From Eurosta solidaginis (taxonomy: Eukaryota; Arthropoda; Insecta; Diptera; Tephritidae): a DNA stretch of 64,000 nt. Below, piece after piece: positions 31,769 through 52,919 of the stretch (the first letter of the stretch is position 1; each line of letters starts with the position of its first letter). Location of the stretch: assembly GCF_040869045.1 (NCBI RefSeq), contig NC_090321.1:33415426-33479425 (forward strand), written 5' to 3'. The notes under the pieces are model-generated. The model had not been told where the DNA came from. It made no database searches and was given only the letters and a program-made list of their open reading frames with translations. Both the position numbers and the translations under genes were made by a program.

Positions 31769-32657
31769 ATTGGTTTTTGGTTTTTCGCCATATCCCTAAC
31801 CTAAAAATATTTGAGTTGGTGAACTTACAAACTTTTTGTATATTTTATTTATTGTTTTGGATACGTTTTGACTAAGAGGCTTATTTTTTGTGGATTATGT
31901 TTGTAACTTTTTGCGTTTTCTTCATTTTTGTGAAATTTTCAAAATTTTTAGGTTAAGGCATCATTAATCGATCACATTGGAGATGGATATGTACATGGGT
32001 ATGGTTACGACTATGGCATTACGGTTAAGAAAGTTTAGTCCTTAAATCAGCCGCTAATGTGAACTGCATTACCGACTCTGTTTAACATCACGTTACCGTT
32101 ACGTTACTGCTGGCTGACATTTGATGCTCGCCTGATGCTCGCCTGTTTTTGACTTTTCCAGACAGTTTGACAAACGCGATAATTACAATCCATCTTGTGT
32201 TGTGCATTTTCTCAGTGAACTTTTTGTTGGATGTGGAGATATTTTTTAATTAAATAAAAAAGAAAAACGATATAAAAAATAAAACAAATTCAATTACGTG
32301 ACTAGTGTGTTGTTGCACATCGAAAAATAAAAAGAATAAATTGTAAAAATTAAATGCTATTAAACAATTTAGTGAGCTGAAAATAGCGACGCAACAAACG
32401 CCAGTTATGGCGTCCACCAGCAAATAAGCGGAAATATTGAAAAAATCATAATTGTGATATTTTTGTGCAAAAAAATAATAGAAAATATCAGTGTATTAGT
32501 ATCGACTGGAAATTGTATACATTTAATTAAAGTAAAATTAAGAAAAATATATATATTAACACACAATTTCTGCAAAAAAAACGAACAGTTATTTGTTTAT
32601 TGGGCCGATAAGCGCAAGAATTCGCTGTTGGCATTGGCAGCGACGTCGACTCGAATT
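31769..32657 (+). other. Single-copy region, possible 5' end of a host gene
   Basis: No repeat recognised. Near 32205-32220 TTTTCTCAGTGAAC contains an initiator-like TCAGT, and an AT-rich leader-like stretch follows. At 32600-32657 the sequence becomes codon-like (a frame reading WADKRKNSLLALAATSTR) and is cut by the transposon at 32666. I infer a promoter/5' leader but cannot name a gene. Confidence 0.3.
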
Positions 32658-32665
32658 GCTCTGGT
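32658..32665. repeat. Target-site duplication, left
   Basis: GCTCTGGT, identical to 48818-48825. It separates putative host sequence from the left terminal repeat. Confidence 0.7.
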
Positions 32666-32694
32666 CAAAGAGGATAAATAAATAAGAGGAGTCA
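32666..32694 (+). repeat. Left terminal inverted repeat, copy 1
   Basis: CAAAGAGGATAAATA then AATAAGAGGAGTCA. Pairs with 48789-48818 with one single-base gap and one mismatch. Confidence 0.8.
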
Positions 32695-35600
32695 GCTCGC
32701 CAACATTGGCAGAATCACTCGCTGCAAAATTTAACAAATGTACCAGCCTGACTGGGTCGCGCTTTACCTTTGTTCTTCTCTTTCGTAAAATCGCCGCACA
32801 CTACTTTTTTCGCCGGAGCAAATGAGAATTTTTTTGGTTTGAGTTATTTTTTGTTTTATGTCGAGTTTTCGTGAAGTAGAGACTCAGCCATTTGAGTTTT
32901 TGTAAACTTGAGAAAATTTGATAATTTCTTTTATATACGCTTTATCGAAAGCAAATGCAACTTTTAATTCGAAATGTATGTTCACTTCATCAATATTTGA
33001 TATATGGCCCAGTTGGAAACACATTTACTAATTTTCCCTTGATAAAACTAGTTTTGCTGCCTTCGTATCCACCACCTTGAAATTGGTGAATTTGTGCGGC
33101 GCACCAAAACAAGAAATGTCAAAAAGAAATCAGCGAACAACCAATTCGGAGCTATTGAAGTAAATAGTGGGGAAAATTTTAGAATAGCACCCCCCGAGTT
33201 CGGGGTAAAACTTCGTATCAAATGAAAGAGGGAGTTCTCCCGATCACAAATATATATATTTTAAAGTGCGCAAACTTATAATTTAAAAGTTATTTGTTGT
33301 TAAAGTTTGCAAATTTAGCAAATTTCTATAGCACTTTAAATTACAATTTACATATCTTTCAAAACATTAATCCACATACATATCTATATAAATTGGCAAC
33401 GATAAGTTTAAATTGCATTTTTGTATATTTCACATTTCATTTTTGCATTGTCTTTACTTATTATAAATGTTTTTATTAAATCAATCGCGCTTTTGTACCA
33501 ACATGCACATATATCATGATTCAATCACAAGAGGTTTGCTCGACAGACACATTTTTTGACAATTGCAGCCATTTTGCTCCCAAATCCAATTGACACCCGT
33601 TACCTGTGTTGTTTCTTTGCGAATTTTCGAAAAATGTTAGTAGTAGAAATAGGAAGCAATCAGTTTACAAATACCCGACAAGTTCTTAACTGCATAATTC
33701 CTTAGAATATTTATTTTAATTTTATGATGAATTTATTAACTATGCCATCATCTATTAGTGTGGATGAACATAGGTTTTATGAAAAGTACGGACACCAAGG
33801 AATCGTGCACTTTCTTAAACCTATGAACATACGAAACCTAAACCAATTCAAAATTCATCGTTCAACGTCAAAACCTCGACTATTAAATCGATTCACGTAA
33901 AAATGTCATTAGTAAATAATGGAAATGCCATAACGAAATGTACTCCTTGGGCATGTTAACTTATTCAGGTAAAAGTCTAGAACAGGAGGCTACTGCTAAT
34001 ACGCGTCCAAAAATGGTGACCTCGACAACAATAATCCCAAGGCGGAAAAGAAAAATTGTATCTCTGTCCGGAGATATGTGCAGTTGAAAGTTGCCAATTT
34101 TCATGTGTTTGTTGTAATGTTTTTGTGCACTGAAAAATATTTTGTGTACAAAGGGATTTTGCACGCATTAAATTTTGATCCGACCTCATTTGTGGACCGG
34201 CCAGAGTAATTTTTTATAAGCTCGGCTGAAGGCCGTCAATGAAACCCGGGGTAATTTTCGGTTTTTCGTCAATATCTTTTGAACGAGCTAGAATATTTGT
34301 TTCCGCCCTCGAATTATTGTTATCGAGGTCAATACGCGTCTTTTGACACTTCTCTTGATATTTTTGGGCGCGTATTAAAAGTCGACCTTCTGTTCTATTA
34401 ATTCCGTATGTTCGGAACATTCGTCTCCATTTAAGAATTTGCAGAATCGGTTTATATTTGGAATATTATGTATATTCGGACCTCGTGAGGTAGTATCAAA
34501 TGAACACATTCCGAATATTCTAAATTAACGGTTTATACGCAACGCTTCCATGAATAATTAACGGAAAAGAGCTTTCCGAAATTTCAGAATAAAAAGTTGA
34601 ATACTCCCTGTGTAGCGGCAGGACCGCACAAAAGCTTAACTCTTCTGTCAAAGTCAAAGTAGGAATATAAAGTTCTAAGACAATAAGCCATTTTCTTTTA
34701 TTTTTGTTTTTGTAAGTTCATTGCGGCTGCTGAGTATCGTATCACCCCATGTCGGCTGCCTCTCAAAATATTTTTCAAAAATTTCCCAAATCTGGATTTG
34801 TCACAAAACCGCCCTATATTAGAGTTAAATTGAAGAACGCTTCACCTCAGAATGCTTTTCATTAACTCCCTCTTATGACAAAATGCATTGAACTTATGCT
34901 CATGTAGGGAGTTTTGGAAACAAATTTTGAGATAATGCATTTTTGAATAAAATTCTAACGTACGGCTTTCTTCAAACAATTTCTGAAAGAATGACCAAAC
35001 CAACATAACTTTATCAATTCACGAAATATTTAGTAGAAAATGAATTATTTCCCCAAAAACTTTTGGCATTTACAAATTTATTATCACTACTAAGATACTA
35101 CCAAAGATACTTGTCTACTACAATTTCGCTGAAGGGGATTGAATTACTCCCCTTTTTCCTTATTTCGAAAAAGCAACCCGTCCAGATTTTTCAATTTGAG
35201 AGTGTCAAAGATCTGTCATCATTGAAGAACAAACCTCTAGTAATTGAATCATGCACATATATATAAACGAAAAAAAAACCAATATAAATATTACCTTACC
35301 ACCGTTCAGTTAATAAAGAAAAAGTAAAATATATAAAATAATACGACAAACGAAGAAGGAAAAACAACATCGAATTTGGCTGTGCCAAGGAGAATCATGT
35401 TTGTAAAGAGCATGTACAGCACAAAGTGCATTTGTATATTTTGTTATTGAAAGTAATTTAATATATAAGCAAATAAAAATTTATAAATAAATAATCATAT
35501 CAACAATCAAGTGATATTATTTATTTTTCTAATTGTTGTAATGCATTATGTTGAATTTCCATATTGTCATCTTCCTCTCCTACAGACAATTCATGTTACC

Positions 35601-35760
35601 GTCTTACTCATTTGCATACAATCTGATAAAAATTTATTCATATCGAATTTCCTCATTTCCATATTGTCTTGTCATCTTCCTCATCTGCATACAATTTTAT
35701 TTTTCCCTCTTCCTCCCTAACGCACCGGCACTCTTATTTTTGAAATCATATGGTATATGG
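32695..35760. other. Left (transposase-3') non-coding part of the P-like element, copy 1
   Basis: AT-rich. Only short frames with no recognised family. Phrases such as 'cgtatcaaatgaaagag' (near 33214) and 'caatatcttttgaacgag' (near 34270) resemble dispersed fly repeats, so older insertions may be buried here. The same sequence recurs at 48855-51920. Confidence 0.45.
32749..32759 (+). promoter_or_regulatory. Subterminal 11-bp inverted motif, left (copy 1)
   Basis: TGACTGGGTCG starts 84 bases into the element. Its inverse lies at 48714-48724, about 95 bases from the other end. Drosophila P elements carry an 11-bp inverted repeat about 125 bp from each end that enhances transposition. Function here is by analogy. 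Copy 2 has it at 48909-48919. Confidence 0.55.
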
Positions 35761-35774
35761 ATGGTTAAGTGCCT

Positions 35775-36380
35775 TATGCGGCAGTTACCCACCGACGTGT
35801 GCCGTACGTAAGGACGTTTGTCGTATGAAGCACGTTTGACCGAGCTCTCAAGCCCGTAGGAATCAATGTGTGCGTCTGTGTACGTGTACATAACATATTT
35901 GCGTGTGTATTGTTTACAGATAAGCACTGTTGCCATTGACCATTTTGCATGCATGCTTATGGAAACATCAACTTTTTCCAATTTAATTTTTGATATTGTA
36001 AAAGGCCGGAATAAATATTAAATAAGTATAAATAGATTACGTATTTATAATCTGCACTTTTACATAATTATTTCGAATTATTTTCACAATTTTTCAAACT
36101 TTAATTAGGTGTTTTTGCATAAAAGTGCAAACGGTCAAAAATTAGCGCACAAAAGTTTACAAGGCAACTCTGTCTAGTGAGAGAGCGATCAGCTGACACG
36201 TTCTTACGCAAAAAATCAAAATTGTTTTGATTTCTACGTTCCGGGCTACGTACGTACGGGCGTTGCACGTCGGTGAGTTTACGTTTACATTGCACACTCA
36301 TAAGATAGGTCGTGTCAGCTGATATGTTATTGGTACGTACGTTCGTGAGTAACCACGGCTTTATGCTGCGCGCACAACTT
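35775..36380. repeat. Cluster of inverted CACCGACGTG/CGTACGTA motifs, probable MITE(s)
   Basis: TTACCCACCGACGTGTGCCG near 35785 is mirrored by CGTTGCACGTCGGTGAGTTT near 36261-36280. A weaker mirror occurs near 36330-36375 (ACGTACGTTCGTGAGTAACC). Fold-back arms without coding sequence suggest one or two MITEs. Recurs at +16,160. Confidence 0.45.
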
Positions 36381-36542
36381 TTATTAACTCTGAGTTCGAC
36401 TACTGCGTCGACTCCATGATTTATTTATTTTTGTATTTTGTCTGCTTTGGTGGTTGAAAATCAATAAAAAAGTTTCTTTTTACAAGCTACAGAGGAAGGC
36501 AGAAAATTTTAAAAAGAGCCCGATTCACATTTTACTTAAGCG

Positions 36543-36759
36543 GGAGTCATTGGTGCCGTATGTCGTATCGCTGTATCCGTATCCCTAACGTAATCAGCTG
36601 TTTATCGTTACGACGGTAAACCAAAAACCAATTGGTTGGCTACGATACGGTTACGACCTTAGCGGCACCAATAATCGATTGCATTGATTCTCATAAGGTT
36701 GGTCGAATCAGCTGTTATAAGGTTACCGATACGGTTACCAATAAAGCACCAATGTCTCC
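36543..36759. mobile_element. MITE, 217 bp, copy 1
   Basis: GGAGTCATTGGTGC at the left end (36543-36556) and GCACCAATGTCTCC at the right end (36746-36759) form a 14-bp terminal inverted repeat with one mismatch. Inner arms also pair partly (AATCAGCTGTT on both sides). No frame inside. Confidence 0.65.
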
Positions 36760-36873
36760 AGCTTTAGAAATTAACGTTAGTTATATATATCTCCTACACA
36801 TTCACTCACCATCACTTAATTGATACTCATGCTTATAACTGCCTGTTAGGCTATGAACTGGCATAAGCTATTG

Positions 36874-36957
36874 TAGCATAGCCGTATAGTCAAGTGAATT
36901 GTTGTAGGATTTCGTAGGTTCGAAGCCCGCTCCAAGTTAATACTTCTTTATTTTTTT
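36874..36957 (+). promoter_or_regulatory. Pol III-like A and B boxes with T-run (tRNA-derived?)
   Basis: TAGCATAGCCG (36874-36884) fits the tRNA A box, and GGTTCGAAGCC (36917-36927) is an exact B box. Their starts are 43 bases apart, as in tRNA genes. A long T-run near 36949-36958 could terminate Pol III. Stems of a real tRNA do not form well, so this is at best a tRNA-derived SINE head. Recurs at 53034-53117. Confidence 0.35.
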
Positions 36958-37194
36958 TTCTGAAATTATAAAAATGCTGATATTGCGGCAAAATAGCAAA
37001 ATTTTGCCGATAAGCGCGTTTTCTTACAATGCAATATTATCAAAGCAAAACTTTTTAAAAGAATAACGTGCTAAAACCATTTGACAAAATCTAAAGCTAA
37101 CCAAATTCGAACAATTATTGAATGAAAGCTGGCATGGTAATAGGCGACCATATAAAATAGCGAATGTCGCTTAAATATGCAAGCATTTTTCCTA

Positions 37195-37575
37195 ACTTCC
37201 ATTCCCGCGTTCGCCTCATCCACAAGCACAAAAGTCAATCCAGAGACAAAATCTTAAATTTTGATTTTGTGTCGATTCTTATTACCAACACATTCAAACA
37301 TTTCGTCCGGCCTCGTACATATAGGCCAAAACTAACACAACCTTAGATTTTGGCGAGGAAATCTTACATTCCCGCCTACGTCTCATCCACAAAATCACAA
37401 ACATAAGAGGAAGAACAAAAAATCGAAGTCAGACAAAATTTTTATTTCTACTTGATTCCGCTTACTAACACATTCAAAGTTTCTGTCTGGCCTCGTACAT
37501 ATAGGCCAAAACGACTACAACCTAAGAGAAAAACTTCCATTCCCGCCTACTACACCTTGTCCAAAAGCAAACTTA
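37195..37575 (+). repeat. Tandem repeat, period about 170-180 bp, 2.3 units, copy 1
   Basis: Units share CATTCCCGC, CTCATCCACAA, CCAACACATTCAAA-type text and GGCCTCGTACATATAGGCC. Unit starts (CCCGC) lie at 37204, 37371 and 37542. The frames across it are not genes. Recurs at 53355-53735. Confidence 0.75.
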
Positions 37576-38224
37576 TAGAATTAATTTGTTCAAACACATT
37601 GTATTGTCTTCAAAGTGTAAGAAGAAGAAGAATCATTGGACAAGAAACATTTTTATATTACCAGGCACTCATAAAAGTTAGCGCGTGTGTGAAATGTATG
37701 GAAATATTCTTTTGGCTTTCGTACGCACATATGCCATTCCTTTTACGCATGAGGCTATACCATACAAAACTTCATATTTCCATTTCTGTTCTGATATTTC
37801 GAAGTTTCGAATGAGCAGAAAAAATCTTCTTTTTCTTCACCACCTTCACCTGACCCACAAACAAAATAGCAAAAGCGAAATAATTTTGAGGTCGTTTGCA
37901 CTTGTAAGCGCAATGTATTTGAAATTATGCATGGTCAGTTGATAAGGTCAGAATAATGTAATCAAAGATTTTAAACGCAAAATAGTGAAAAAGGGGAAAA
38001 ATTGCCAAAAATCGGCGGAATTTTTTATGAACTTGACACTTGCACTTTGTTAGGGTAGAATTAAAAGGGCTATAAAACTGTAGACTTGAAATATTATTTC
38101 AAATTACAGAAAAAAATCCACACTTAATAAAATAATTAACAAAACTTTAGTTTTTCATAAATTTATATTTTTATTTATATCTTTATTTTATTTTCATATG
38201 TTTAAATAAAAAATATTTTAAACA

Positions 38225-38358
38225 AGCCTGAAACGAAAAAAAGGAACAAATTATTGAAAAACCTAAAACGAAAAGAGAAAATTAAATAAAAAGCCTGAAA
38301 CGAAAAAAAGGAACAAATTATTGAAAAACCTAAAACGAAAAGAGAAAATTAAATAAAA
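38225..38358 (+). repeat. Perfect 67-bp tandem duplication, copy 1
   Basis: AGCCTGAAACGAAAAAAAGG starts at 38225 and again at 38292, with the following bases identical to the end of each unit. A-rich, non-coding. Recurs at 54385-54518. Confidence 0.85.
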
Positions 38359-39322
38359 AACAATTAGAAACGGTATGTAATAATAATTATTTAATAACCT
38401 GAGAGGAAAACAAGAATAATTAATAAAAAAGCTAAAGAGAAACAAAAAGAATTATTAAAAATCTGAAAAGAAAAAAAGGAAAAATTTATTAAAAATATTT
38501 AATCACTTTAATGAAAATTGGTATAACTAGACACGATTTACGAATTTAACATACCTTTGGGTTTAACGGATTTAAAATTAATTTGCATCGGAATTACGAA
38601 ATTGCCACCATATAGCGACAATTTCTCTCACAACTTAACCTTTTCAAGTTAAATGTTATTTCACCTGTATTTGAAAACATTTATTATACTCACAGTCCCT
38701 TTTATATTGAATCATTAAAAATCGACCACATTATCAAATCTAAACTGTAAGCATGTTTTAGTGACGATTTAAGAATACTTATAATTTTCTATTAATTTAC
38801 GCGTTTATTTAGGTACCTTTCATTGCTTAATATTTAAATATGTGCTTTTGGCTTTCATTGAGTATTTAAAATTTTACCAACGCAATAAGAACAATATAAA
38901 GGTTGAAAATTTGCATTGATATTTTTGATTACCGTGCAAAAAAATTATAATTACAATGTGCTAAACTGTATAAATTGTACCGGTTGGTAAATTAACACGG
39001 CCAAATTATAAGGGATTGTGAGTAGCCAAATTATTGAGCAATTTTTGTAATTTTGAGTAAAATATTAAATAAGCTGGTTTAATCAATAAGAATATTAAAA
39101 ATACAGGCTTTAATGTTTTTAAATACTAGGCTCTGATGCTTAAAACCGTTAGGCTGGAGACAGGCTGCAAGCGATAAGCGTTGCTTCACGCCTACCCAAG
39201 CTTATAGCAAGCACTGTGCCCTCAGCCTAGATAAAAATATATTCGGTAGCAAACAACCGCTACCTGGAGGAATCTATAAAATAAATATAAAAACTTCATA
39301 AAACAAAGATGTAAATTCCAAT
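38359..39322. other. AT-rich stretch downstream of the transposase, copy 1
   Basis: No gene seen. Recurs at 54519-55482. Confidence 0.4.
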
Positions 39323-39328
39323 TTTATT
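39323..39328 (-). terminator. Polyadenylation signal of the transposase, copy 1
   Basis: AATAAA on the minus strand, about 91 bases after the stop codon. Its repeat is at 55483-55488. Confidence 0.5.
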
Positions 39329-39418
39329 TAAATTATATTACCGGTTTCCTCGTTAAACCATAGCCCTGAACAGAAGTCGCTAGGAATGTAGGGTTCTGGC
39401 CAAACTTGTCAATCCTCT

Positions 39419-42400
39419 TTACTTTTCTGCAGCGTTTAATTTTTGTAGTTTTTCGATCGCGCGTCGTCGTCGTTCCTCCTGTTCGTCCGCTCGGGCCATC
39501 CACTTTGCATTTTTATATAAAAGGACGGTGACCATGAAATCCAACAATTGAATCCGGTGGTCTGCGCACTCCCCGGTGAACCATTCAGGGAACATTTCAT
39601 CAGTCTTTGACTTTATGTAGTCGATGATTTGTTTTTTTACATAAAGTGTGTGTGCGCAGACCCGGAATTTTTCGAGGTACCACTTCATGTGCGCCGTACT
39701 TATTTCGAAGAACTGGTCCGACGGGTTCACAAGACGTAAGTCATCGTACGGCTTATAGTTCTTTGCAATTATAAGCGCTTCGGAACTATAAGCTGGATCG
39801 ACACCAGACTTGCACATGAGTTGTGCACATTTTTCACATTGTATTCTCTTCATCACTTTGGTATAAATGGCATAACCAGTGTAGTACCTCTGGATCTGCT
39901 CTTCCGCAGTCCGTGCAGCAACTTCCTCCACTAGGGGTTGCTTTGTAATGTCCACATTTCTGACTTCTTCATCAGTTATTGGTACATTCGAAAAAACTGT
40001 TGCTCCCACGATGTCCTCTTCTGCCATTTGCCGTATTACTTCCTCTATGGTCGCGTCGATTGAATCCCTCACTCGCTGTGCAACCTCCTCCGGTGGGTTC
40101 GCTTCAGCTCCACACGCCGGCTTGTTGCGGCTGGATAATAAATTGTGGAGCTGGACCTCACCGAGGAAGTCCGAGCCGGCTCCACGCGCCGGCTCATTGT
40201 GGATGCATAATAAATTGTGTTGAGGGACCTCCTCCGGGAGGTCCAAGCCGGCTCCACGCACCGGCTGATTGTGGCTTAACGAATTGTTTTGCCGGACCTC
40301 CCCTTGGAAGTCCGAGCCGGCTCCACGCGCCGGCTCATTGCAATTTGATGAGTTGGGTTGCGGGACCTCCTCCGAGAGGTCTGAGGCTGCTCGCTGTGTT
40401 CGCACTTCCCTACGTCCATCGTTGGCTAGGTTGTTCACAATAAAATATTTTTTATATTTTAATTGCGCTGCTTCCCCTATGCATTGCCTCCGTAAGCGGT
40501 CGACCACATCCTGGAGGTCTGTTCCCGCTCCTTGCGGTGGGACCTCCTTGCGGAGGCCCTCTCCGGCAACTGTATGTACAATATACCGCTGTTTATATTG
40601 TAACAAAATTGCGTCACTTTGGCATTCCCTCCGTATGCGGTTGAGCTCCACCTGTAATTTTACGCATGCTCCTTTCGTGTGATCCTTTGTGCCCCTTGTT
40701 GCTTTTCCTCTGCAGTGAGTGTGGTCGTGTTCTGTCGAGCTGTACTGGTTCTGTCCTTGGACCTCCTGCGGGAGATCCGTGCCGGCGTTTGGTCTCTGTC
40801 CGCCGCCGATTATGTCCTGTTGTCGGGCCTCCCCTAGGAGGCCCTCGCCGGAAGTTGTCAAAATGTCATGCGTCGATCCATTGTGGCTGGATGCGTTGTG
40901 CTGCGGGACATCCTCCGGGAGGTCCGAGCCGGCTCCACGCGCCGGCTCATTGTGGCTTGACAAATTGTTTTGCCGGACCTCCCCTAGGAAGTCCGAGCCG
41001 GCTCCACGCGCCGGCTCATTGCAATTTGATGAGTTGGGTTGAGGGACCTCCTCCGGGAGGTCCGAGTCAGCTCCACGCGCCTGCTCATCGTGGCTCGTTG
41101 AGTTGTTCTCAGTAAATATTTGTTTGAGCAGGTCCGCTATGGTGTCATCGGTGCTGTATCCAAAGTTTGTGGTTTCATCTATTGGTTCACGGGCTTTTGT
41201 TGCGATATGTCTGTCCTGAGTCGGTAAGTCATCGTCTTCGTAATTTTTTGAATGTGGTTCGTCAACCGGCATTCTTGTATCCACGGCCGGTGTGACTTTC
41301 TCCACGCAACTGTTTGGATCGACACCTGGAGTCTGATTCCAATCTAGGAATATGTCGTCATCATCCTCACAGTTGGTGCCCTTAGCTTGGAAGTGATGTC
41401 TCAAGATACTCATTGAGACCAATCGGGCCACGATGTACTGCATTTCATTTGCAGTAGGATGCATATTAATGCCTTGGCTCGCTCGTACCTTGTAAAAAAA
41501 GTTTTCCAAGGCGTCCTGGTTCAGCTTGCCAAACATTACGAAGTCTAACTCTGGGTATCGCTCGAATAAATCCTCCGACAATGTTATCATCGATCTGATG
41601 GTCAATATAAACCCGTCCACACAATTTACACGGTTTTGGAATCTAACGGTCTCCAAATATTTGATATGTTCCAATAGACGATTTTTTTTCTCGTTAGATC
41701 CGCGCTTAATTGGCCTTTTCAACGGGTTTTTATCGTTTAAGTTTTTACTGTCAAGCTCATCGAACAAATCGTTCATCTGTTTTATAAAGATTTGCGTGGG
41801 CTTGACTGACTCTAAAACCTTTGTCTCATGTCCAAAAAGTTTTAGGTCTTCCATCATCTTTAGACCGGCGTAAACGGAATTGCTCAACAACTGAGTCGCT
41901 CTCGACACACTCATTTTCTCAAAATTGTTCGGGTGGAGGTGGGAATCTGTCAGTTTTGGGCAAATTTTATAATTGTCGTTCTTCTTGTCCATTTCGTACA
42001 GTTTTTCTACTACCACTAAGTTAGCAATGCCATCTCTTGTTTGCACATTGTAACCTGAAATAAAATTATTCCGCATATTTTTTATCAGGTGGCAGTAGTC
42101 GAACATGAAGTGAATTGTTTCTCCATTGTGAATCCTTGTTGTGTTGTTTGCGTTAATACCCAGTTTTTTGAACGCGTTTTGGTTCGTGGTGCCTTGGTCA
42201 CATACAGCAACCTTTACGTTCAGTCCAATACTACATGCGACGTCGATGTTCCTCCATATCAGCTTGACTAGTTCGATTCCTTTGACTGCATTTTTCGCCA
42301 CGTAGTAGGACAACACGTATTTCCAATTGCTGCAGATTCCCTTTACCATAAAAAAGAGGCACTTGTCTGCAATTCGATTCTCCCGACAGGCTTCTCCACT

Positions 42401-43348
42401 GTCTACAAAACCGTCAATTACATCAACCGTATTGTTGTATGTCAAGTCTTTTTTTATTGAAACCTCATCCCACATGATTGAGCATATGCGATGGGTAGGT
42501 GGCATTGATTTAATCATTGCTTCCAAGTTGCTGATTACGTTGTTATCAATGCCTGGACGGACATATCGAATTGGTCGCTCTCTTAATAGGGTACTGTCAC
42601 TTGGTAAATGGAATCCCAAGTCATCCTTCATAAATTTGTAGGCTTTCGTAGACATGTAGCTTATGTTTTGCGCTACCGTTTTTTCTTCGGGCTTGTACCG
42701 AGTATCCTTCTTGCCAACTATCGTCCTGGCGAAGGTAATTGCTTCTTCGGTTGCTCCTGGTTGTGCTATGATGGATGTTTTCCTGAGGTTGTCCAGCTTC
42801 TTCTCCGTTAAATCCACCGCCTCCGTCAGCTTCTGGATTGTGTCCATCATGTTCTTTTCCCTTCGCATATAAATCCGCTCTCGCTTAGCGAAGGGCTCAT
42901 GATCACATACAATCGCCGGGTCCGTGTTGGTTCCTTCCTCTCTGCAATGCACATCTGGATACTGTTTTTTAACATGGGGGTCTGTGTAAAATGGGACTTC
43001 CTCCAAAGCGATGTCAGTGGGCAGTGTTTTTGTGGCTGTCGTTGGTGCAACCTGCTGCACGAACGAGCAACCACTACCACTTGGCACTTCATCGTCAGTA
43101 CCCCCAAAAATTGTTGGAACAGCCCCGTCCTTCAAACGTTTTCCTGTTCCTCCTTTTTGATCCGCTTCGAAATGGCGATCGCAAATATACAAATTTTTCT
43201 TTCCTAATTGAGAAATTGGCATATTACATGCCAGAACCCATACCCTCTGCGCTTCTTCTTCTTTTGGGAACTCATGTAAAATGGTTCCCTCCATCCAAGC
43301 GCACGTCGATACGCAGCATTTCCTCTTCTGCTTCAATATTTTCGCCAT
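39419..43348 (-). CDS. THAP / P-element-type transposase, 1309 aa, copy 1
   Basis: An uninterrupted frame from ATG at 43348 to TAA at 39419. Residues 11-80: THAP zinc finger (Cys12/Cys16, HEFP, Trp37, Cys56-x2-His59, GKRLKDGAVPT), which binds transposon ends. Residues 150-195: Leu-rich coiled-coil-like segment, as in P transposase dimerisation. Residues 225-660: RNase H-like core. Candidate acids are Asp294 (IMWDEVS), Asp384 (AVCDQGTTNQNAF) and Glu615 (LNQDALENFF); the GTP-binding-type insertion domain lies between, with FMFDYCHLIKNMRNNF. Residues 755-1090: about eight degenerate units around EPARGAGSDLPEEVPQ, plus a ~47-residue duplication (LNRIRRECQ / VDRLRRQC). Residues 1150-1280: C-terminal domain with CEKC and LRLVNPSDQFFE. 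Drosophila P transposase is 751 aa; the repeat tract accounts for much of the excess. A domesticated host THAP9-like gene is the alternative, but the flanking TIRs favour a transposase. Confidence 0.9.
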   Translation of the reverse strand: MAKILKQKRKCCVSTCAWMEGTILHEFPKEEEAQRVWVLACNMPISQLGKKNLYICDRHFEADQKGGTGKRLKDGAVPTIFGGTDDEVPSGSGCSFVQQVAPTTATKTLPTDIALEEVPFYTDPHVKKQYPDVHCREEGTNTDPAIVCDHEPFAKRERIYMRREKNMMDTIQKLTEAVDLTEKKLDNLRKTSIIAQPGATEEAITFARTIVGKKDTRYKPEEKTVAQNISYMSTKAYKFMKDDLGFHLPSDSTLLRERPIRYVRPGIDNNVISNLEAMIKSMPPTHRICSIMWDEVSIKKDLTYNNTVDVIDGFVDSGEACRENRIADKCLFFMVKGICSNWKYVLSYYVAKNAVKGIELVKLIWRNIDVACSIGLNVKVAVCDQGTTNQNAFKKLGINANNTTRIHNGETIHFMFDYCHLIKNMRNNFISGYNVQTRDGIANLVVVEKLYEMDKKNDNYKICPKLTDSHLHPNNFEKMSVSRATQLLSNSVYAGLKMMEDLKLFGHETKVLESVKPTQIFIKQMNDLFDELDSKNLNDKNPLKRPIKRGSNEKKNRLLEHIKYLETVRFQNRVNCVDGFILTIRSMITLSEDLFERYPELDFVMFGKLNQDALENFFYKVRASQGINMHPTANEMQYIVARLVSMSILRHHFQAKGTNCEDDDDIFLDWNQTPGVDPNSCVEKVTPAVDTRMPVDEPHSKNYEDDDLPTQDRHIATKAREPIDETTNFGYSTDDTIADLLKQIFTENNSTSHDEQARGADSDLPEEVPQPNSSNCNEPARGAGSDFLGEVRQNNLSSHNEPARGAGSDLPEDVPQHNASSHNGSTHDILTTSGEGLLGEARQQDIIGGGQRPNAGTDLPQEVQGQNQYSSTEHDHTHCRGKATRGTKDHTKGACVKLQVELNRIRRECQSDAILLQYKQRYIVHTVAGEGLRKEVPPQGAGTDLQDVVDRLRRQCIGEAAQLKYKKYFIVNNLANDGRREVRTQRAASDLSEEVPQPNSSNCNEPARGAGSDFQGEVRQNNSLSHNQPVRGAGLDLPEEVPQHNLLCIHNEPARGAGSDFLGEVQLHNLLSSRNKPACGAEANPPEEVAQRVRDSIDATIEEVIRQMAEEDIVGATVFSNVPITDEEVRNVDITKQPLVEEVAARTAEEQIQRYYTGYAIYTKVMKRIQCEKCAQLMCKSGVDPAYSSEALIIAKNYKPYDDLRLVNPSDQFFEISTAHMKWYLEKFRVCAHTLYVKKQIIDYIKSKTDEMFPEWFTGECADHRIQLLDFMVTVLLYKNAKWMARADEQEERRRRAIEKLQKLNAAEK
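40090..41100 (-). repeat. Coding minisatellite inside the transposase, copy 1
   Basis: GC-rich units around CCGAGCCGGCTCCACGCGCC (e.g. 40181-40200, 40314-40333, 40924-40943, 40992-41011), with CGGGACCTCCTCCG-type linkers. The first cluster is 40100-40390 and the second 40890-41090. Units stay in frame. This tract is much richer in G+C than the surrounding element. Plus-strand frames across it are shadows. Recurs at 56250-57260. Confidence 0.8.
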
Positions 43349-43399
43349 GTAATGCGATGGTCTTCCATCGTAACCTTCGAATTAATATTAAAATAATGA

Positions 43400-44500
43400 A
43401 CAACTCAAAAAAATAATATATAAAAAAAATTTAAGTAAAAAAACTAAAAATAGAAATTCAGGGCTTAATGAAATAAAATTAAAATAATAAGAAAATTAAA
43501 TATAACAAATAAAAACCATAAAAAGATATACTAAAAAAATAAATAACGTAGCATAAATTATAAAATAAAATCGGAAAAAAATATAAAAAAAATATGAAAA
43601 TAGAGACATAGGAAATATAGTAAAATAAGAAAATATTTAAAAATAAAAGCCGGAGTTAAGCTCATGAATTCTTAAATATAAGTAAAAATAAAAACTTTAA
43701 GAAGAAACAAAAATAAAATAAATAAATAATATAGTAATAATAAAAAACTAATGGACAAAAAAAAAACAATAAAAAATGCATCTCAAGTGGCAAACGTGAG
43801 TAAAAAACGTATGACCTTGTAAAGTATTTACGTACCAAATTCTATCCAAATCGGTTGAATCGTTGCCAACATAATAGTTGATATACTAATATATAAATAT
43901 ACAAAATAATAAGTATACACAGTTTTAATATAAATATGAAAACGTAAATATTAACGTTATAATATACATACATATATCTATAAAATGTTCAAAGATAAAT
44001 ACATATATATAGCTTAAAGGTGAATTTAAACATTTGTAATAATGTATAGGCATATATTTTTTTGTTATAAGATACAAATTCAGAGCTGGGTAGTAATGGT
44101 TTCCTTAGCTATTCAATTCCTCCAGAGAAAAGGAATAGATTACATTTCAATTTCTAAAAAAAAAAAATAATACCAAAAGTAATTTTTTTGAGGCTCGACT
44201 ACAAAAATTTTTTTTTTGTAATTGAAAACAAACACTTTGCTCAAACGTAATTTCTGCTCCAGTACTTTCGAAAGGAATGGAAAGAATTGGAGATTTTCCA
44301 ATTACATAACAAGGAATGCCTCAATTGCAATTGCAAAAATAATTGAAAAATCTTTAGTTTAAAAAATTTTTTTGAGATTGAAGCGGTGATTTTATGAAGA
44401 CATAGTAACTCCTTGGACCATAAGAAAATTTTTGTAAAACAGAATTACTGTCTTCTATGACTGGCAAATTCATTTCTCCTCGCCATATATCAGGACGGGT
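43400..44500. other. Very AT-rich stretch upstream of the transposase, copy 1
   Basis: Long A-rich runs (43400-43790), then AT-rich sequence with CAAATCGGTTGAATCGTT near 43849, a phrase shared with the repeat near 14750. No frame. It could hold transposase control or intron sequence. Recurs at 59560-60660. Confidence 0.4.
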
Positions 44501-44509
44501 ATGGTAAAA

Positions 44510-44815
44510 TTGTATCATTTTAGGTTAGATTTGCTGTTGAGCGGTCGGCCAATTGCCTTTGTATGTCGTAAGCAACGTTACTTAATCTTTTCCCAAAGTG
44601 TTGCTGACCAGCGACTTGAGGATTTTGTTGCGGCCTTGTATTTTAGCTACAACTTCGATGGCATACGCCTTGAAGGTAATAGTGTCACCGAATGTTATAC
44701 CTAAGATATTTGGATGACTGACAGCGCAACACCATCGACGTGAACATCCAATATTCCACGTCGTTAAACAGAGTGGACGTGGCTTTGAGCTTGTTTCGAA
44801 TCCGCGATCTTACCT
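44510..44815 (-). pseudogene. Jockey-type LINE RT fragment, copy 1
   Basis: On the minus strand, pieces in shifting frames resemble the post-RT region of jockey-type ORF2: DGVAL..., KAYAIEVVAKIQGRNKIL, then GKRLSNVAYDIQRQL. Homologous at the DNA level to 46880-47285 on the other strand (shared GGGAAAAGATTAAG, AACGTTGCT). Fragmentary. Recurs at 60670-60975. Confidence 0.55.
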
Positions 44816-45479
44816 TTGTATATATGTATCTATTAATGCAGATCCCTTCCACTTGCACATACATATTTATCGAAATTTGGAAAGGCTCATTTCAAAATTG
44901 CGAGGTCTTCAATAGGGATATATTAATATAAAAAAAAGTTACGCCTTCGTCTTATGCTTACTTACTCCATATAAAACAAAAAACATTCATTTGGTATCAA
45001 TTATAGTTGAACCATGGTATCAATGGTAAATATACTTTGCCAATTGACTCAAAACTAGTTATGATATGTTTCATGTTTGGTTTGGACTTCCACATATTTT
45101 GTAAACTTTCTCTAACATCTTCACAATCACTTACACTAACACTTACTAAAGACTTCTGAAAGGACATAACTCCACTCTTTCTGACGGTATATAAGTTTTG
45201 TTCATAGATTATGCAATTTCAAGGCGACTGACCTTGGCTTCTCTCTCTAATCAGCTATCTTGAACTCGCACTCTGAAACCCAATTTGCCTCTTTGTTAAA
45301 CTAATTTTTCATTCAGAGGAAAAATTGTAGTTAAAACCATACAAATTAATTTTCCTGGAAAAGTTTGCAATGGCATTACTTTTTTTTAAATTATATTTTG
45401 TGTTGACTTTTCTATCGTTTAAAGTAATCACAATTCCAAAAAAATGTATTGTTTAATCATTAAAATTTGCCAAACTATT

Positions 45480-45880
45480 GGCGTTCCCACTCAGCATTTA
45501 GGTGATTCAATTTTGAATTTCCCTACATATCAATACAATTTGATTACTCTTTCTGACTAAATAATGAGTTATCATACAATTGAACAAAAGAAATAATCAA
45601 ATATGAATACTTTCGATGATGAAAAACTTCGATCACTTTTTGGAATCATTTTTGAAGTCCTTTAATGACTAAATTTTAATATTTCATAAAAACCAACAAA
45701 AAGAATAATCAAATATGCTTACCTATGATGATCAAAAACTGAATATAGTTTTTCAATCACATTTTGGAATCATATTTGAATCAAATGTGTTTACTTTAGG
45801 TGATCAAAAATTTATAATCATTTTTCATTCAGCTTTCTAAATCTTTCATGAATATATTTGTTGACTGAATAATGAATTTT
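45480..45880 (+). repeat. Diverged AT-rich direct repeats, copy 1
   Basis: Three diverged units of about 120-130 bp share 'aataatcaaatatg', 'gatgatcaaaaact' and 'ttttggaatcat' phrases. Non-coding. Recurs at 61640-62040. Confidence 0.45.
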
Positions 45881-46879
45881 ATACTTGTTGAAATTTTACT
45901 TTTCATTAAAAATCTTATTTTTTCACATACACATATTTTTTCAATCATGAAGCTAAGAAAAAATATATAAAAATTTTATTATTTATGCAAAAGATATTCT
46001 TCAAGACAAAAATAATGTAATGCTGCTCGTGAACGAAATTTTCCCCAACCATTTCTCCCCTTCAACTTCCCAGAAAATACATAATGATTGGACATAGGTT
46101 GTGAGCTATTTGAACCCCAGGTAAGTAAAACTATCTTGACATACCTGGATACGGCTTCAACATCCCGTATCGCATCCATATTTTAAGATGCAGACGATAA
46201 TGCTGATGTTGGATGTTGTAGTCGCAGGTGTATATCGGTCAAGTTTGTTTGCAAGTTAGCTGTGGTTCGAATAGCTCACTTTCGCATGCTTTCTTCCCCT
46301 GATGAAATAAGATTATTATGTAGTATCATATTTTGAAGGAGATATGAGGAATAAATGCATCATAATCGCATTCAAAAATTATTCAAAAATCTCAACCAAA
46401 ACGATTGAAATATGTTCACGAATATGATCGGAAAATGACTGTGAAAAGCAGTCAGATATTACTCTAAAACTATTAAAGCTCCATTTTACAATGATATCAA
46501 ATATGAATAAAAGGCGTTTCGAAATAGGAATCATAAATGATTTTTCAAGAATAATCACATTTAAGGTACATTTTTCTACCGACGATACATTAATTTTCGA
46601 ACAGAAAATGCCTTTAAATTTGAACGTTTTTAATCATCTTGGGGTATGATATTTAAATATTTTTTGATCAAAATTTTCAAAAAATGGTGGCTGGGATATA
46701 TTTGCTGGTAGCGTATAATTTCATGAAAATTAAAATAGTCCGTAACCACAATTAAAAAAGGCATATTAAGTTATTTTCAATCACAATAATTGCTCCATTG
46801 CTTTGACCGAAAGATAAACATATGCACAATGTACCTACGTATGTCCTATTTATTGTAATTCATTCATTGTAATAAATAA

Positions 46880-47285
46880 AAAGGCACATCAGCTTAACAA
46901 TGATGGTGTTACATTACCGACTGTCAGTCACCAAAAGATTTTAGGGGCAACGTTTGATAAGGCGCATGCCACCGAAATTGTATCCAAAGTACAATGCCGC
47001 CATAAAATCTTAGGGAAAAGATTAAGAAACGTTGCTGGACATACACAGCAATTGACGTTCATGTGCTACGTGACACCTGTGTGGTCACCTGGTCTTAGAA
47101 ACACGCACTGGAAAAGGCTGCAGGCCTGATAAAATTCTGCACGCAAAACAGTCACGGGATGTCTTCTTATGGCCCCTGAACACCATCTGCATATTGAGGC
47201 AGAAGATCTCAACATTACAGAGCATAACGAAATGCTGAAGACAGTTTTTGCTTAATTGTCACAAACCTGGACACCTTAGCAAACT
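46880..47285 (+). pseudogene. Jockey-type LINE ORF2 fragment, copy 1
   Basis: Plus-strand frame: QLNNDGVTLPTVSHQKILGA, FDKAHATEIVSKVQCRHKIL, GKRLRNVAGHTQQLTF, VTPVWSPGLRNTHWKRLQA and a stop. Then, in another frame, PEHHLHIEAEDLNITEHNEM. This is the conserved region after the RT catalytic core in jockey-type elements. No RT core remains. Confidence 0.75.
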
Positions 47286-47455
47286 AGACATCTAACAAGA
47301 GCAAAATATTAAATCATTCAAAAGAACATGTATAGATAGTAATTAAGAAATGTTGTAAATAATATCAATCTAATTACAAGTAACCCTATTACTATATAAA
47401 TCAATCGATCTATTTTATACATATGTATATAATATATCTATTTTTTTCAACTTAC

Positions 47456-47690
47456 CCAAATTTAATGTTGGTAAAGCGTAATCTTTAAGACGCTTTCCAA
47501 TCCTCACGTCTTTCTCAAAATGAAGGGAGCAAACAAATGTAGTATTTTTGTTGACTACATTTATTTTCAAATTATCCATCCATTTGCTCCTAACATCAGC
47601 GTTGGCCGGGAAGGAATAAAAAACCAATCCCGGATCCGCCCGTGCATTTCTGCAACACCCGACCGCGCAACATTTACGAATTGTCGGCAT
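47456..47690 (-). CDS. THAP-domain exon with splice donor, copy 1
   Basis: From ATG at 47690 the minus-strand frame encodes a complete THAP zinc finger: KCCAVGCCRNARADPGLVFY, FPANADVRSKW, FVCSLHFEKD, RIGKRLKDYALPTL. A GG|GTAAGTT donor follows at 47456/47455. The open frame runs on to 47415 but is non-THAP after the donor, so this is probably exon 1 of a spliced gene. It lies about 1.1 kb inside the right end, where a P transposase gene would begin. The same GKRLKD(G/Y)A(V/L)PT signature occurs in the 1309-aa protein, so the two THAPs are paralogous. The partner exon is not identified: it may join the main transposase as an alternative N-terminus, or make a THAP-only DNA-binding repressor. Confidence 0.65.
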
Positions 47691-48132
47691 TTTTTAGATT
47701 TAAGGTTGTTTTGAAAAAAACAATTAGCACAATTAAATTTATTTGATATTTTCGCAAAATTAGTGAAAACGAACTGAACGCGTCAAGAACTTTTTCATAA
47801 TAAAAAATTGCTTCATTTTTGGTAGTTTTGGCGCAATTTAACTTCGAAAATGTGTGGGAGAAAGAGTTCATAATTTGCAAATTTCACTCAATAAGATTTT
47901 CACTTTTATTTGGTTTTATGTTGACAACAAAATGTTTATACATTCATATATAATTGCATTGATTTCTAAATCACTAATGCAATATATATATAATAAGTAT
48001 AATAATTTTGTATTTTATATGTTGAACACGATTAGAACTTACTTAAATTTATTCACCTGTTGGTTTGTATACTTAGTTGGGGTAGGTTATGTTTGTAGTT
48101 CCGCCATCATCGCAATTTTGCTTTCGTACTTG

Positions 48133-48363
48133 TTTGCAGAATTTTAGTTCTGTACGTCTGTGACTGGGTATGGGTTGGTACAGAAAACTGCTTTTTTAAA
48201 CACTTCCCAAGAGTTTATATTAATATATTTTGTAATTTTTGGAAAAAGGATAAATTAGTTTATTAATAATAACCTTCAAAACAAACTGGAATACATTAGG
48301 AAAGCGTTTTAAAGGCAATTTTCCATACCCAGTCACAGAGGTACAGAACTAAAATTCTGCAAA
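48133..48363. mobile_element. MITE with 41-bp terminal inverted repeats
   Basis: TTTGCAGAATTTTAGTTCTG and following bases (48133-48173) match the reverse complement of 48323-48363 at 40 of 41 positions, ending in GTGACTGGGTATGG. Total 231 bp with an AT-rich, non-coding interior. It sits 0.45 kb from the right end of the P-like element, upstream of the THAP exon. The second-unit copy would lie past the window end. Confidence 0.8.
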
Positions 48364-48713
48364 ATACGCGTTTACACGCCTCTTTTAATTAAATTTTTTA
48401 CACTATGCACACACACATATCCTCGTTCTATTTGCACATGACACTTGCAACCATTTTTTCACTGTTTTATCAACATATTTTTAAATTTAATTTCACTTTT
48501 CAAGTTATTTATTATCAATAAACGCAATCTTTTATGCATTTCCTTTATTCACTCCACTTCTTATAGAAAAGGATAAAAATATAATTTTTGCAAACTGTAG
48601 TGTTCGTGGCCCTTTCATACACTTTGGCCAAATAACTCAAAACGCACTCAAAGAGATTTTTATTTTCGCCGCGTTTCTCAAGCAAACAGCGGACAGACAC
48701 AAAGAAGAATCGC

Positions 48714-48724
48714 CGACCCAGTCA
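48714..48724 (-). promoter_or_regulatory. Subterminal 11-bp inverted motif, right (copy 1)
   Basis: CGACCCAGTCA on the plus strand, the exact inverse of 32749-32759. Confidence 0.55.
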
Positions 48725-48788
48725 TAGAATCCATCGAGAAAATATTGTTACAACTAGAAGATAAACATAAATTTTTCAAATCAGCGAA

Positions 48789-48818
48789 TGACGCCTCTTA
48801 TTATATTTATCCTCTTTG
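48789..48818 (-). repeat. Right terminal inverted repeat, copy 1
   Basis: Read on the minus strand: CAAAGAGGATAAATAT then AATAAGAGGCGTCA. With the left end of copy 2 (48826-48854) it forms a near-perfect hairpin around CTCTGGT. Confidence 0.8.
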
Positions 48819-48825
48819 CTCTGGT
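48818..48825. repeat. Target-site duplication between the two elements
   Basis: GCTCTGGT between the right terminal repeat of copy 1 and the left terminal repeat of copy 2. Only one copy of the duplication separates the elements. Confidence 0.7.
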
Positions 48826-48854
48826 CAAAGAGGATAAATAAATAAGAGGAGTCA
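48826..48854 (+). repeat. Left terminal inverted repeat, copy 2
   Basis: Identical to 32666-32694. Confidence 0.8.
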
Positions 48855-51800
48855 GCTCGCCAACATTGGCAGAATCACTCGCTGCAAAATTTAACAAATG
48901 TACCAGCCTGACTGGGTCGCGCTTTACCTTTGTTCTTCTCTTTCGTAAAATCGCCGCACACTACTTTTTTCGCCGGAGCAAATGAGAATTTTTTTGGTTT
49001 GAGTTATTTTTTGTTTTATGTCGAGTTTTCGTGAAGTAGAGACTCAGCCATTTGAGTTTTTGTAAACTTGAGAAAATTTGATAATTTCTTTTATATACGC
49101 TTTATCGAAAGCAAATGCAACTTTTAATTCGAAATGTATGTTCACTTCATCAATATTTGATATATGGCCCAGTTGGAAACACATTTACTAATTTTCCCTT
49201 GATAAAACTAGTTTTGCTGCCTTCGTATCCACCACCTTGAAATTGGTGAATTTGTGCGGCGCACCAAAACAAGAAATGTCAAAAAGAAATCAGCGAACAA
49301 CCAATTCGGAGCTATTGAAGTAAATAGTGGGGAAAATTTTAGAATAGCACCCCCCGAGTTCGGGGTAAAACTTCGTATCAAATGAAAGAGGGAGTTCTCC
49401 CGATCACAAATATATATATTTTAAAGTGCGCAAACTTATAATTTAAAAGTTATTTGTTGTTAAAGTTTGCAAATTTAGCAAATTTCTATAGCACTTTAAA
49501 TTACAATTTACATATCTTTCAAAACATTAATCCACATACATATCTATATAAATTGGCAACGATAAGTTTAAATTGCATTTTTGTATATTTCACATTTCAT
49601 TTTTGCATTGTCTTTACTTATTATAAATGTTTTTATTAAATCAATCGCGCTTTTGTACCAACATGCACATATATCATGATTCAATCACAAGAGGTTTGCT
49701 CGACAGACACATTTTTTGACAATTGCAGCCATTTTGCTCCCAAATCCAATTGACACCCGTTACCTGTGTTGTTTCTTTGCGAATTTTCGAAAAATGTTAG
49801 TAGTAGAAATAGGAAGCAATCAGTTTACAAATACCCGACAAGTTCTTAACTGCATAATTCCTTAGAATATTTATTTTAATTTTATGATGAATTTATTAAC
49901 TATGCCATCATCTATTAGTGTGGATGAACATAGGTTTTATGAAAAGTACGGACACCAAGGAATCGTGCACTTTCTTAAACCTATGAACATACGAAACCTA
50001 AACCAATTCAAAATTCATCGTTCAACGTCAAAACCTCGACTATTAAATCGATTCACGTAAAAATGTCATTAGTAAATAATGGAAATGCCATAACGAAATG
50101 TACTCCTTGGGCATGTTAACTTATTCAGGTAAAAGTCTAGAACAGGAGGCTACTGCTAATACGCGTCCAAAAATGGTGACCTCGACAACAATAATCCCAA
50201 GGCGGAAAAGAAAAATTGTATCTCTGTCCGGAGATATGTGCAGTTGAAAGTTGCCAATTTTCATGTGTTTGTTGTAATGTTTTTGTGCACTGAAAAATAT
50301 TTTGTGTACAAAGGGATTTTGCACGCATTAAATTTTGATCCGACCTCATTTGTGGACCGGCCAGAGTAATTTTTTATAAGCTCGGCTGAAGGCCGTCAAT
50401 GAAACCCGGGGTAATTTTCGGTTTTTCGTCAATATCTTTTGAACGAGCTAGAATATTTGTTTCCGCCCTCGAATTATTGTTATCGAGGTCAATACGCGTC
50501 TTTTGACACTTCTCTTGATATTTTTGGGCGCGTATTAAAAGTCGACCTTCTGTTCTATTAATTCCGTATGTTCGGAACATTCGTCTCCATTTAAGAATTT
50601 GCAGAATCGGTTTATATTTGGAATATTATGTATATTCGGACCTCGTGAGGTAGTATCAAATGAACACATTCCGAATATTCTAAATTAACGGTTTATACGC
50701 AACGCTTCCATGAATAATTAACGGAAAAGAGCTTTCCGAAATTTCAGAATAAAAAGTTGAATACTCCCTGTGTAGCGGCAGGACCGCACAAAAGCTTAAC
50801 TCTTCTGTCAAAGTCAAAGTAGGAATATAAAGTTCTAAGACAATAAGCCATTTTCTTTTATTTTTGTTTTTGTAAGTTCATTGCGGCTGCTGAGTATCGT
50901 ATCACCCCATGTCGGCTGCCTCTCAAAATATTTTTCAAAAATTTCCCAAATCTGGATTTGTCACAAAACCGCCCTATATTAGAGTTAAATTGAAGAACGC
51001 TTCACCTCAGAATGCTTTTCATTAACTCCCTCTTATGACAAAATGCATTGAACTTATGCTCATGTAGGGAGTTTTGGAAACAAATTTTGAGATAATGCAT
51101 TTTTGAATAAAATTCTAACGTACGGCTTTCTTCAAACAATTTCTGAAAGAATGACCAAACCAACATAACTTTATCAATTCACGAAATATTTAGTAGAAAA
51201 TGAATTATTTCCCCAAAAACTTTTGGCATTTACAAATTTATTATCACTACTAAGATACTACCAAAGATACTTGTCTACTACAATTTCGCTGAAGGGGATT
51301 GAATTACTCCCCTTTTTCCTTATTTCGAAAAAGCAACCCGTCCAGATTTTTCAATTTGAGAGTGTCAAAGATCTGTCATCATTGAAGAACAAACCTCTAG
51401 TAATTGAATCATGCACATATATATAAACGAAAAAAAAACCAATATAAATATTACCTTACCACCGTTCAGTTAATAAAGAAAAAGTAAAATATATAAAATA
51501 ATACGACAAACGAAGAAGGAAAAACAACATCGAATTTGGCTGTGCCAAGGAGAATCATGTTTGTAAAGAGCATGTACAGCACAAAGTGCATTTGTATATT
51601 TTGTTATTGAAAGTAATTTAATATATAAGCAAATAAAAATTTATAAATAAATAATCATATCAACAATCAAGTGATATTATTTATTTTTCTAATTGTTGTA
51701 ATGCATTATGTTGAATTTCCATATTGTCATCTTCCTCTCCTACAGACAATTCATGTTACCGTCTTACTCATTTGCATACAATCTGATAAAAATTTATTCA

Positions 51801-52702
51801 TATCGAATTTCCTCATTTCCATATTGTCTTGTCATCTTCCTCATCTGCATACAATTTTATTTTTCCCTCTTCCTCCCTAACGCACCGGCACTCTTATTTT
51901 TGAAATCATATGGTATATGGATGGTTAAGTGCCTTATGCGGCAGTTACCCACCGACGTGTGCCGTACGTAAGGACGTTTGTCGTATGAAGCACGTTTGAC
52001 CGAGCTCTCAAGCCCGTAGGAATCAATGTGTGCGTCTGTGTACGTGTACATAACATATTTGCGTGTGTATTGTTTACAGATAAGCACTGTTGCCATTGAC
52101 CATTTTGCATGCATGCTTATGGAAACATCAACTTTTTCCAATTTAATTTTTGATATTGTAAAAGGCCGGAATAAATATTAAATAAGTATAAATAGATTAC
52201 GTATTTATAATCTGCACTTTTACATAATTATTTCGAATTATTTTCACAATTTTTCAAACTTTAATTAGGTGTTTTTGCATAAAAGTGCAAACGGTCAAAA
52301 ATTAGCGCACAAAAGTTTACAAGGCAACTCTGTCTAGTGAGAGAGCGATCAGCTGACACGTTCTTACGCAAAAAATCAAAATTGTTTTGATTTCTACGTT
52401 CCGGGCTACGTACGTACGGGCGTTGCACGTCGGTGAGTTTACGTTTACATTGCACACTCATAAGATAGGTCGTGTCAGCTGATATGTTATTGGTACGTAC
52501 GTTCGTGAGTAACCACGGCTTTATGCTGCGCGCACAACTTTTATTAACTCTGAGTTCGACTACTGCGTCGACTCCATGATTTATTTATTTTTGTATTTTG
52601 TCTGCTTTGGTGGTTGAAAATCAATAAAAAAGTTTCTTTTTACAAGCTACAGAGGAAGGCAGAAAATTTTAAAAAGAGCCCGATTCACATTTTACTTAAG
52701 CG

Positions 52703-52919
52703 GGAGTCATTGGTGCCGTATGTCGTATCGCTGTATCCGTATCCCTAACGTAATCAGCTGTTTATCGTTACGACGGTAAACCAAAAACCAATTGGTTGGC
52801 TACGATACGGTTACGACCTTAGCGGCACCAATAATCGATTGCATTGATTCTCATAAGGTTGGTCGAATCAGCTGTTATAAGGTTACCGATACGGTTACCA
52901 ATAAAGCACCAATGTCTCC
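52703..52919. mobile_element. MITE, 217 bp, copy 2
   Basis: Exact repeat of the MITE at 36543-36759 in the second unit. Confidence 0.65.

Follow-up and report, generated by a model that had tools for sequence, protein, structure and literature searches.

The stretch studied here, C3:33415426-33479425 of the 1.9 Gb Eurosta solidaginis assembly (64,000 bp, hereafter the window), contains a transposon of the P superfamily, new in lineage and in size, which is present as a tandem pair joined via one shared 7-mer. Element copy 1 occupies 32666..48818 (16,153 bp) and is assigned to the minus strand, that of its transposase gene; copy 2, on the same strand, fills 48826..64000 within the window and ends outside it at 64978. 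Two head-to-tail elements (E) are thereby arranged as CTCTGGT-E-CTCTGGT-E-CTCTGGT: the first 7-mer lies at 32659..32665, the second, at 48819..48825, separates the copies, and the third follows position 64978. Compared with copy 1 from 32666 onward, the part of copy 2 inside the window shows zero mismatches in 15,175 bases, and once its continuation is included 16,153/16,153 bases match. The first-pass annotation of this DNA had described a single 16-kb element at 32658..48825; this has to be replaced by the tandem pair, and what it read as the right flank is the left end of the second copy. Judged from sequence features, we consider it probable, at roughly four chances in five, that the element is a cut-and-paste P-superfamily DNA transposon, probably autonomous, of a tephritid lineage whose transposase carries two THAP domains.

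The ends of the element are well defined. The left terminal inverted repeat (32666..32694, plus strand, ~29 bp) starts with CAAAGAGGATAAATA, and the right one (48789..48818, minus strand, ~30 bp) carries the inverted CAAAGAGGATAAATA at 48804-48818; the two correspond over about 29/30 bp with one gap and one mismatch. Inverted ends of ~30 bp had been proposed from the first reading. In another long copy, designated B, the terminal repeats match at 93% across 30 bp, and the likeness between left and right ends fades beyond ~30-35 bp. The 15-mer CAAAGAGGATAAATA has 2,926 matches in the assembly versus 56 for its reversed control and is therefore far more common than chance would allow. Miniature inverted-repeat transposable elements (MITEs) of ~345 bp with the same ends occur genome-wide, for example at C1:1.2-52.4 Mb among the first 100 places.

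To the duplication a length of 7-8 bp had been ascribed, together with an 8-bp family rule; 7 bp (CTCTGGT) stood and 8 bp did not. With ends reading CA...TG, the flanking eight bases at the window locus are GCTCTGGT and CTCTGGTC, which are unequal. We compared the flanks of 26 end pairs, hand-picked rather than randomly sampled from the first 100 places of the end 15-mer where opposite ends lie close together, with copy B and both window copies added; an insertion that appeared at two loci entered the count a single time, and L025 was dropped because its flanks are the same as those of L020. Exact agreement was found over 7 bp in 14/26 pairs and over 8 bp in 0/26, and another 4/26 have one mismatch in the 7 flanking bases. 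MITEs of 333-352 bp make up 14 of the 26 pairs, and the long copies B, F and D are flanked by exact 7-mers of their own (GTCATAT, CTAGCAT and GTTCTGT, respectively), as are two short derivatives (ACATTGC and CTTCAAC), while another derivative has one mismatch. Duplications of 8 bp and 9 bp (ends AAAGAGG...) were rejected: they fit the window locus only, where the ends are ambiguous by one base on each side, and the other copies fit 7 bp but never 8, 9 or 10. The 7-mers also share a preference: 21 of them match GTANTAC at 3.14 of 6 positions on average, compared with 1.63 for random 7-mers from the window and 2.33 for the best of 2,000 random sets. This set comprises the 7-mers with exact agreement on both sides and leaves out those with mismatches, ACCAAAG from the array, and the outer 7-mers of two pairs on C5 and C2 discussed below.

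Long copies with both ends exist elsewhere in the genome. Since only the best candidates were scored, the counts from the end searches are lower bounds: the left 500 bp of the element gave 30 matches (5 full-length, 5 over bases 1-260, and 20 inner pieces only), the right 500 bp gave 41, of which 5 are full-length. For 10/10 left-end copies found, a right end lies in the same orientation 1.5-16.2 kb away, so that the claim that the two ends belong together, which was to fall if they never co-occurred elsewhere, survived. The ten paired copies measure 16,153 (twice), 14,289 (F), 13,046 (D), 12,700 (B), 6,626, 3,479 (twice), 1,567 and 1,534 bp; at C2:243.03 Mb a right end occurs without a matching left end. 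Because five of these two-ended copies, the window pair included, are 12.7-16.2 kb long, we conclude that large units moved. Copy B aligns to the window element with 97.4% identity over 12,299 columns. Copy F, ~360 kb from the tandem pair, is identical to it in its first 687 bp and has an open frame of 698 codons (L051, C3:33846522-33850628) that retains a THAP domain and the beginning of the catalytic domain, having lost residues 370-942 and about 48 others in frame; we take this deletion to resemble the repressor-type deletions of P.

The transposase gene lies on the minus strand between the ends. Exon 1 (predicted, 47456..47690) encodes the first THAP domain (Pfam E 4.4e-14) and ends in a GT donor; it is followed by a predicted intron of 4,081 nt (43375..47455, GT...AG) and by exon 2 (39419..43374), which encodes a second THAP domain (E 2.5e-12), a helix-turn-helix (HTH) region, an RNase H-like domain with a guanosine triphosphate (GTP)-binding insertion, a repeat-rich tail, a conserved C terminus and the stop codon. 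The predicted splice joins both exons in frame to a transposase of 1,396 residues; the main frame alone has 1,308, counted from its first methionine. In copy 2 the exons fall at 63616..63850 (predicted; copy identity, shifted by 16,160) and 55579..59534 (own open frame and copy identity), both on the minus strand. The RNase H-like domain is split by the GTP-binding insertion (PF21787 2.2e-30, PF21788 1.9e-19, PF21789 2.5e-5), and the protein matches the P transposase structure 6p5a with E 7e-19. Residues D293, D383 and E614, invariant across a seven-row alignment, align with the catalytic D230, D303 and E531 of P, and D611 aligns with D528, a GTP-contacting residue (PMC7776569). The expectation of an open P-type transposase frame inside the ends was thus borne out by these domains and by the absence of interruptions. 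We rejected a cargo-gene reading of the THAP exon at 47.5 kb, because this exon splices in frame to the transposase and because the alignment also shows two consecutive THAP-like regions in the homologues P0001, P0002 and P0006. These three proteins are without the ~480-residue repeat-rich stretch of the transposase. Inside the transposase tail (window 40107-41142) we noted tandem repeats whose period of 69-72 bp is divisible by three.

How far the frame is kept intact was assessed at the level of the genome. A search with the 1,308-residue frame, in which 36 of 746 candidates were scored, returned 71 matches, and only the window pair spans all of it without a stop; the frame of copy B contains one stop. 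The P-type RNase H domain has at least 150 matches in the Eurosta genome in a Pfam search (150 scored of 424 candidates) and occurs in 0/14 control genomes. Against the frames of other subfamilies, the ratio of nonsynonymous to synonymous substitution rates (dN/dS) of the transposase core is 0.10-0.17 in 7/11 comparisons (dS 1.0-2.9), with dS saturated in the other four, which suggests that the core is under constraint between subfamilies.

A tree of 63 rows places the element in a clade with 12 further rows, of which ten come from named tephritids (support 100/100), with P0054 from Rhagoletis as its sister (100/99); the core of Drosophila P stands outside this clade and joins P0047 (100/100). 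Some tree rows labelled 'metag' do have names, for instance P0056 from Bactrocera dorsalis. The tephritid P-like transposases of this clade (Zeugodacus LOC105214929, Bactrocera 'THAP9', Rhagoletis LOC118747120) are known here as proteins only; the full-length P0001-P0004, of which P0001 comes from Eurosta and P0002 from Zeugodacus, are 45-47% identical to the transposase. The THAP domains, the split RNase H domain with its GTP-binding insertion, the catalytic acids, and the terminal repeats and target duplications at independent loci assign the element to the P superfamily; 8-bp duplications and a grouping with Drosophila P, which would mark a P element sensu stricto, were not found. The element accordingly belongs to the P superfamily as a new tephritid lineage and is not a P element in the strict sense, and of the previously suggested new P lineage in tephritids with a THAP transposase, the tephritid and superfamily parts hold, whereas the P-type duplication rule does not.

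A comparison with known systems places the element among its relatives. The ends of P, like those here, are ~30 bp long and begin with CA, and 1360/Hoppel/ProtoP makes 7-bp duplications, as this element does. With P it shares the THAP domain, the HTH region, the RNase H domain with GTP-binding insertion and the catalytic acids. The P element of Drosophila melanogaster measures 2.9 kb and makes 8-bp duplications (PMC7776569), whereas the present element has 12.7-16.2 kb, 7-bp duplications, two THAP domains and a repeat-rich insertion of ~480 residues. Galileo, a P-superfamily member of Drosophila, typically generates 7-bp duplications with the preferred target GTANTAC / GTATTAC, and 1360/Hoppel/ProtoP is described as the third member of the superfamily (PMC4168063). 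The 7-bp duplications at GTANTAC-like sites make our element similar to Galileo in these features; Galileo's terminal repeats are unusually long (PMC3688188) in contrast to the ~30 bp found here, and no protein named Galileo appeared among the matches listed in the protein searches. Zebrafish Pdre2, with 13-bp ends and 8-bp duplications (PMC10983969), is likewise a P-like transposon with a transposase gene. A literature search on P elements in tephritids, with most subscription journals outside its coverage, showed no paper on such an element among those listed.

About three quarters of the window copy lie outside the transposase exons. We examined five places at which the interior of the window copy differs from that of copy B. 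Three are replacements, among them 33170..35333, for which copy B has 95 bp and of which copy F contains the first part; at one, copy B carries additional DNA; and one is a 575-bp insertion in the window copy (35783..36357), absent from copy B and flanked by an imperfect ~10-bp repeat, which is probably a nested small transposon. The mixed nature of these differences rules out that the 16-kb length stems from one nested transposon. The idea that other transposons accumulate inside the element therefore holds in part: the 575-bp insertion agrees with it, as does the recurrence of pieces of the interior elsewhere in the genome, but the length is not accounted for by a single simple insertion, and copies of 12.7-14.3 kb have duplications of their own. 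Of ten interior reading frames searched against Pfam, one, the THAP exon, gave a clear match; passages that by eye resemble retrotransposon pieces gave no match.

Cut-and-paste movement of the element is well supported at the sequence level. Several observations weigh against the proposed reading of the element: In 8/26 end pairs the flanks differ at two or more of the 7 bases, and the P element itself yields 8-bp duplications (PMC7776569). Other subfamilies also have long open frames (e.g. 1,133 and 1,073 codons, with partial query match), so that there are several candidate movers of the MITEs. Finally, the coding sequences of the window copy and copy B differ by 6 synonymous and 24 nonsynonymous changes, which indicates no constraint since their split; the transposase tail (residues 681-1140) holds 18 of these 24.

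The target of the pair can be read from empty sites. The left flank (32486..32658) belongs to a dispersed repeat in which the target site lies, and the joined outer flanks match this repeat: among the 71 matches listed, the best two outside the locus span the insertion point (84% and 82%). All six paralogues that were read are without the insertion, and five have a single CTCTGGT in the stretch shown, in line with the empty sites with one target-like octamer that had been anticipated. Beside the pair stand 12 extra bases, CTCTGGTCTCTG, which are missing in all six paralogues (an 11-column alignment gap), and a fourth CTCTGGT, 5 bp beyond the array, is likewise absent from them; it may be that the additional CTCTGGTCTCTG is a scar left by another insertion.

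Two identical neighbours on one 7-base target suggest that elements can re-use each other's insertion sites, and further junctions of this kind occur in the genome. Facing ends within 24 bp of each other form 19 junctions in the assembly and 0 in the reversed control, and the gap is exactly 7 bp at 7/19. Under a flat spread over 25 gap lengths, a rough control, the Poisson P for 7/19 is 1.5e-5; when the window is excluded and one array counts a single time, 5/17 junctions have 7 bp (Poisson P 0.0007). The six 7-bp gaps outside the window represent five places: L073 and L075 have the shared 7-mer three times each, L076 has it twice exactly and once with a mismatch, its units being in opposite orientation, and L077 has it twice, its far end not having been found. 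At L074, three units form an array whose right border carries a different 7-mer. The units of the MITE dimers are 85.8% (L073) and 77.2% (L076) identical, and since unlinked MITEs are about as unlike (median 82.8%, range 70.4-97.7, 45 pairs from 10 MITEs), these units are separate insertions. Because two 7-bp MITE dimers thus consist of unlike units, insertion into the duplication of a resident copy is a recurrent event.

For these reasons, the tandem arose most likely, with somewhat better than even confidence on our part, by a second insertion into the duplication of the first copy: a freshly moved identical copy, e.g. from the sister chromatid, would have integrated exactly into the resident's 7 bp. 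Some of the junctions speak against this origin. The gaps at 12/19 close junctions are other than 7 bp and scattered over 1 to 22, and the units of L074 and L075 are 99.4-99.7% alike, so that either origin is possible for them. At C5:264.07-264.09 Mb (L048, L066, L049), a 63%-identical subfamily forms a direct tandem with a period of 10,622 and 4,935/4,935 compared bases identical, whose outer 7-mer is GTTACAA and whose inner junction is without the 7-mer and misses ~10 bp of one end; at C2:19.80 Mb (L082-L084, L096, L097), two 3,479-bp derivatives differ by 1 mismatch and are separated by a 48-bp spacer between outer TTTTTGT 7-mers. Lacking an inner shared 7-mer, both pairs speak for a second route. 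A third, reversed end follows the C2 pair at 19808068, and at C3:277.27-277.29 Mb (L061-L063, L067, L068) three copies of a 46%-identical subfamily stand in a row, with 5,139 compared bases identical and a 902-bp segment inverted between them.

Such a second route would be a single insertion followed by tandem duplication of the element and one 7-mer, be it through unequal exchange, template switching in gap repair, or recombination with an excised circle, with no second transposition. The identity of the window copies over all 16,153 bp also fits simple tandem duplication, and the C5 and C2 pairs look like duplications. We nevertheless regard this origin as rather unlikely for the window pair, as the break would have to hit the 7-bp duplication exactly on both sides, a form that the C5 and C2 pairs do not show and the MITE dimers with unlike units do. 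That the tandem is an assembly error and the fly has one copy is improbable: the repeat is perfect and its unit has about the length of common accurate long reads, but there is no N run anywhere in the window, each outer flank is one half of a single target repeat, and the junction with the locus's own 7-mer is unique in the assembly, so that a repeat mix-up would have needed to invent it. Least of all do we believe that there is no 16-kb mobile unit and that the ends of a small transposase element or of MITEs lie 16 kb apart by chance, since, common as the end sequence is, one and the same set of five long copies has the 500 bp inside each end in matching order and orientation, each of B, F and D shows its own 7-bp duplication, and copy B aligns at 97.4% over 12,299 columns.

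Around the element, host-like exons with Tudor domains lie ~25 kb to its left (window 6863-8075; Pfam E 9.8e-19 and 1.4e-7), and remnants of retrotransposons (reverse transcriptase and RNase H, together with endonuclease matches that fall just below the Pfam cut-off) occupy 2170-5251, 10361-11464 and 30110-30898. An inverted repeat of 41 nt with a 149-nt spacer is located near the right end of copy 1 (48133..48363); the window contains no tRNA and no Rfam match reaching the gathering score.

By analogy with P, the transposase would bind the element ends via its THAP domains, cut both ends with GTP as cofactor, and join them with a 7-bp stagger at sites resembling GTANTAC; the majority of relatives, being MITEs or internally deleted copies, would be passive. 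Beyond this, we tentatively propose that a resident copy's duplication and its outer ends serve the transposase as a preferred target, so that units from 345-bp MITEs to 16-kb copies stack via a shared 7-mer, which would make this a self-homing, array-building lineage. If the fourth CTCTGGT is indeed a scar, a further copy once sat in the array and then left. In Eurosta, the P superfamily is represented outside Drosophila by a lineage whose transposase appears intact, whose long copies are recent and whose end sequence is very common. A P-type transposon can move as a unit even at sizes above 12 kb, most of which is non-transposase DNA in the window copy, and the natural same-site stackings make it directly testable whether P-type transposases home on their own duplications.

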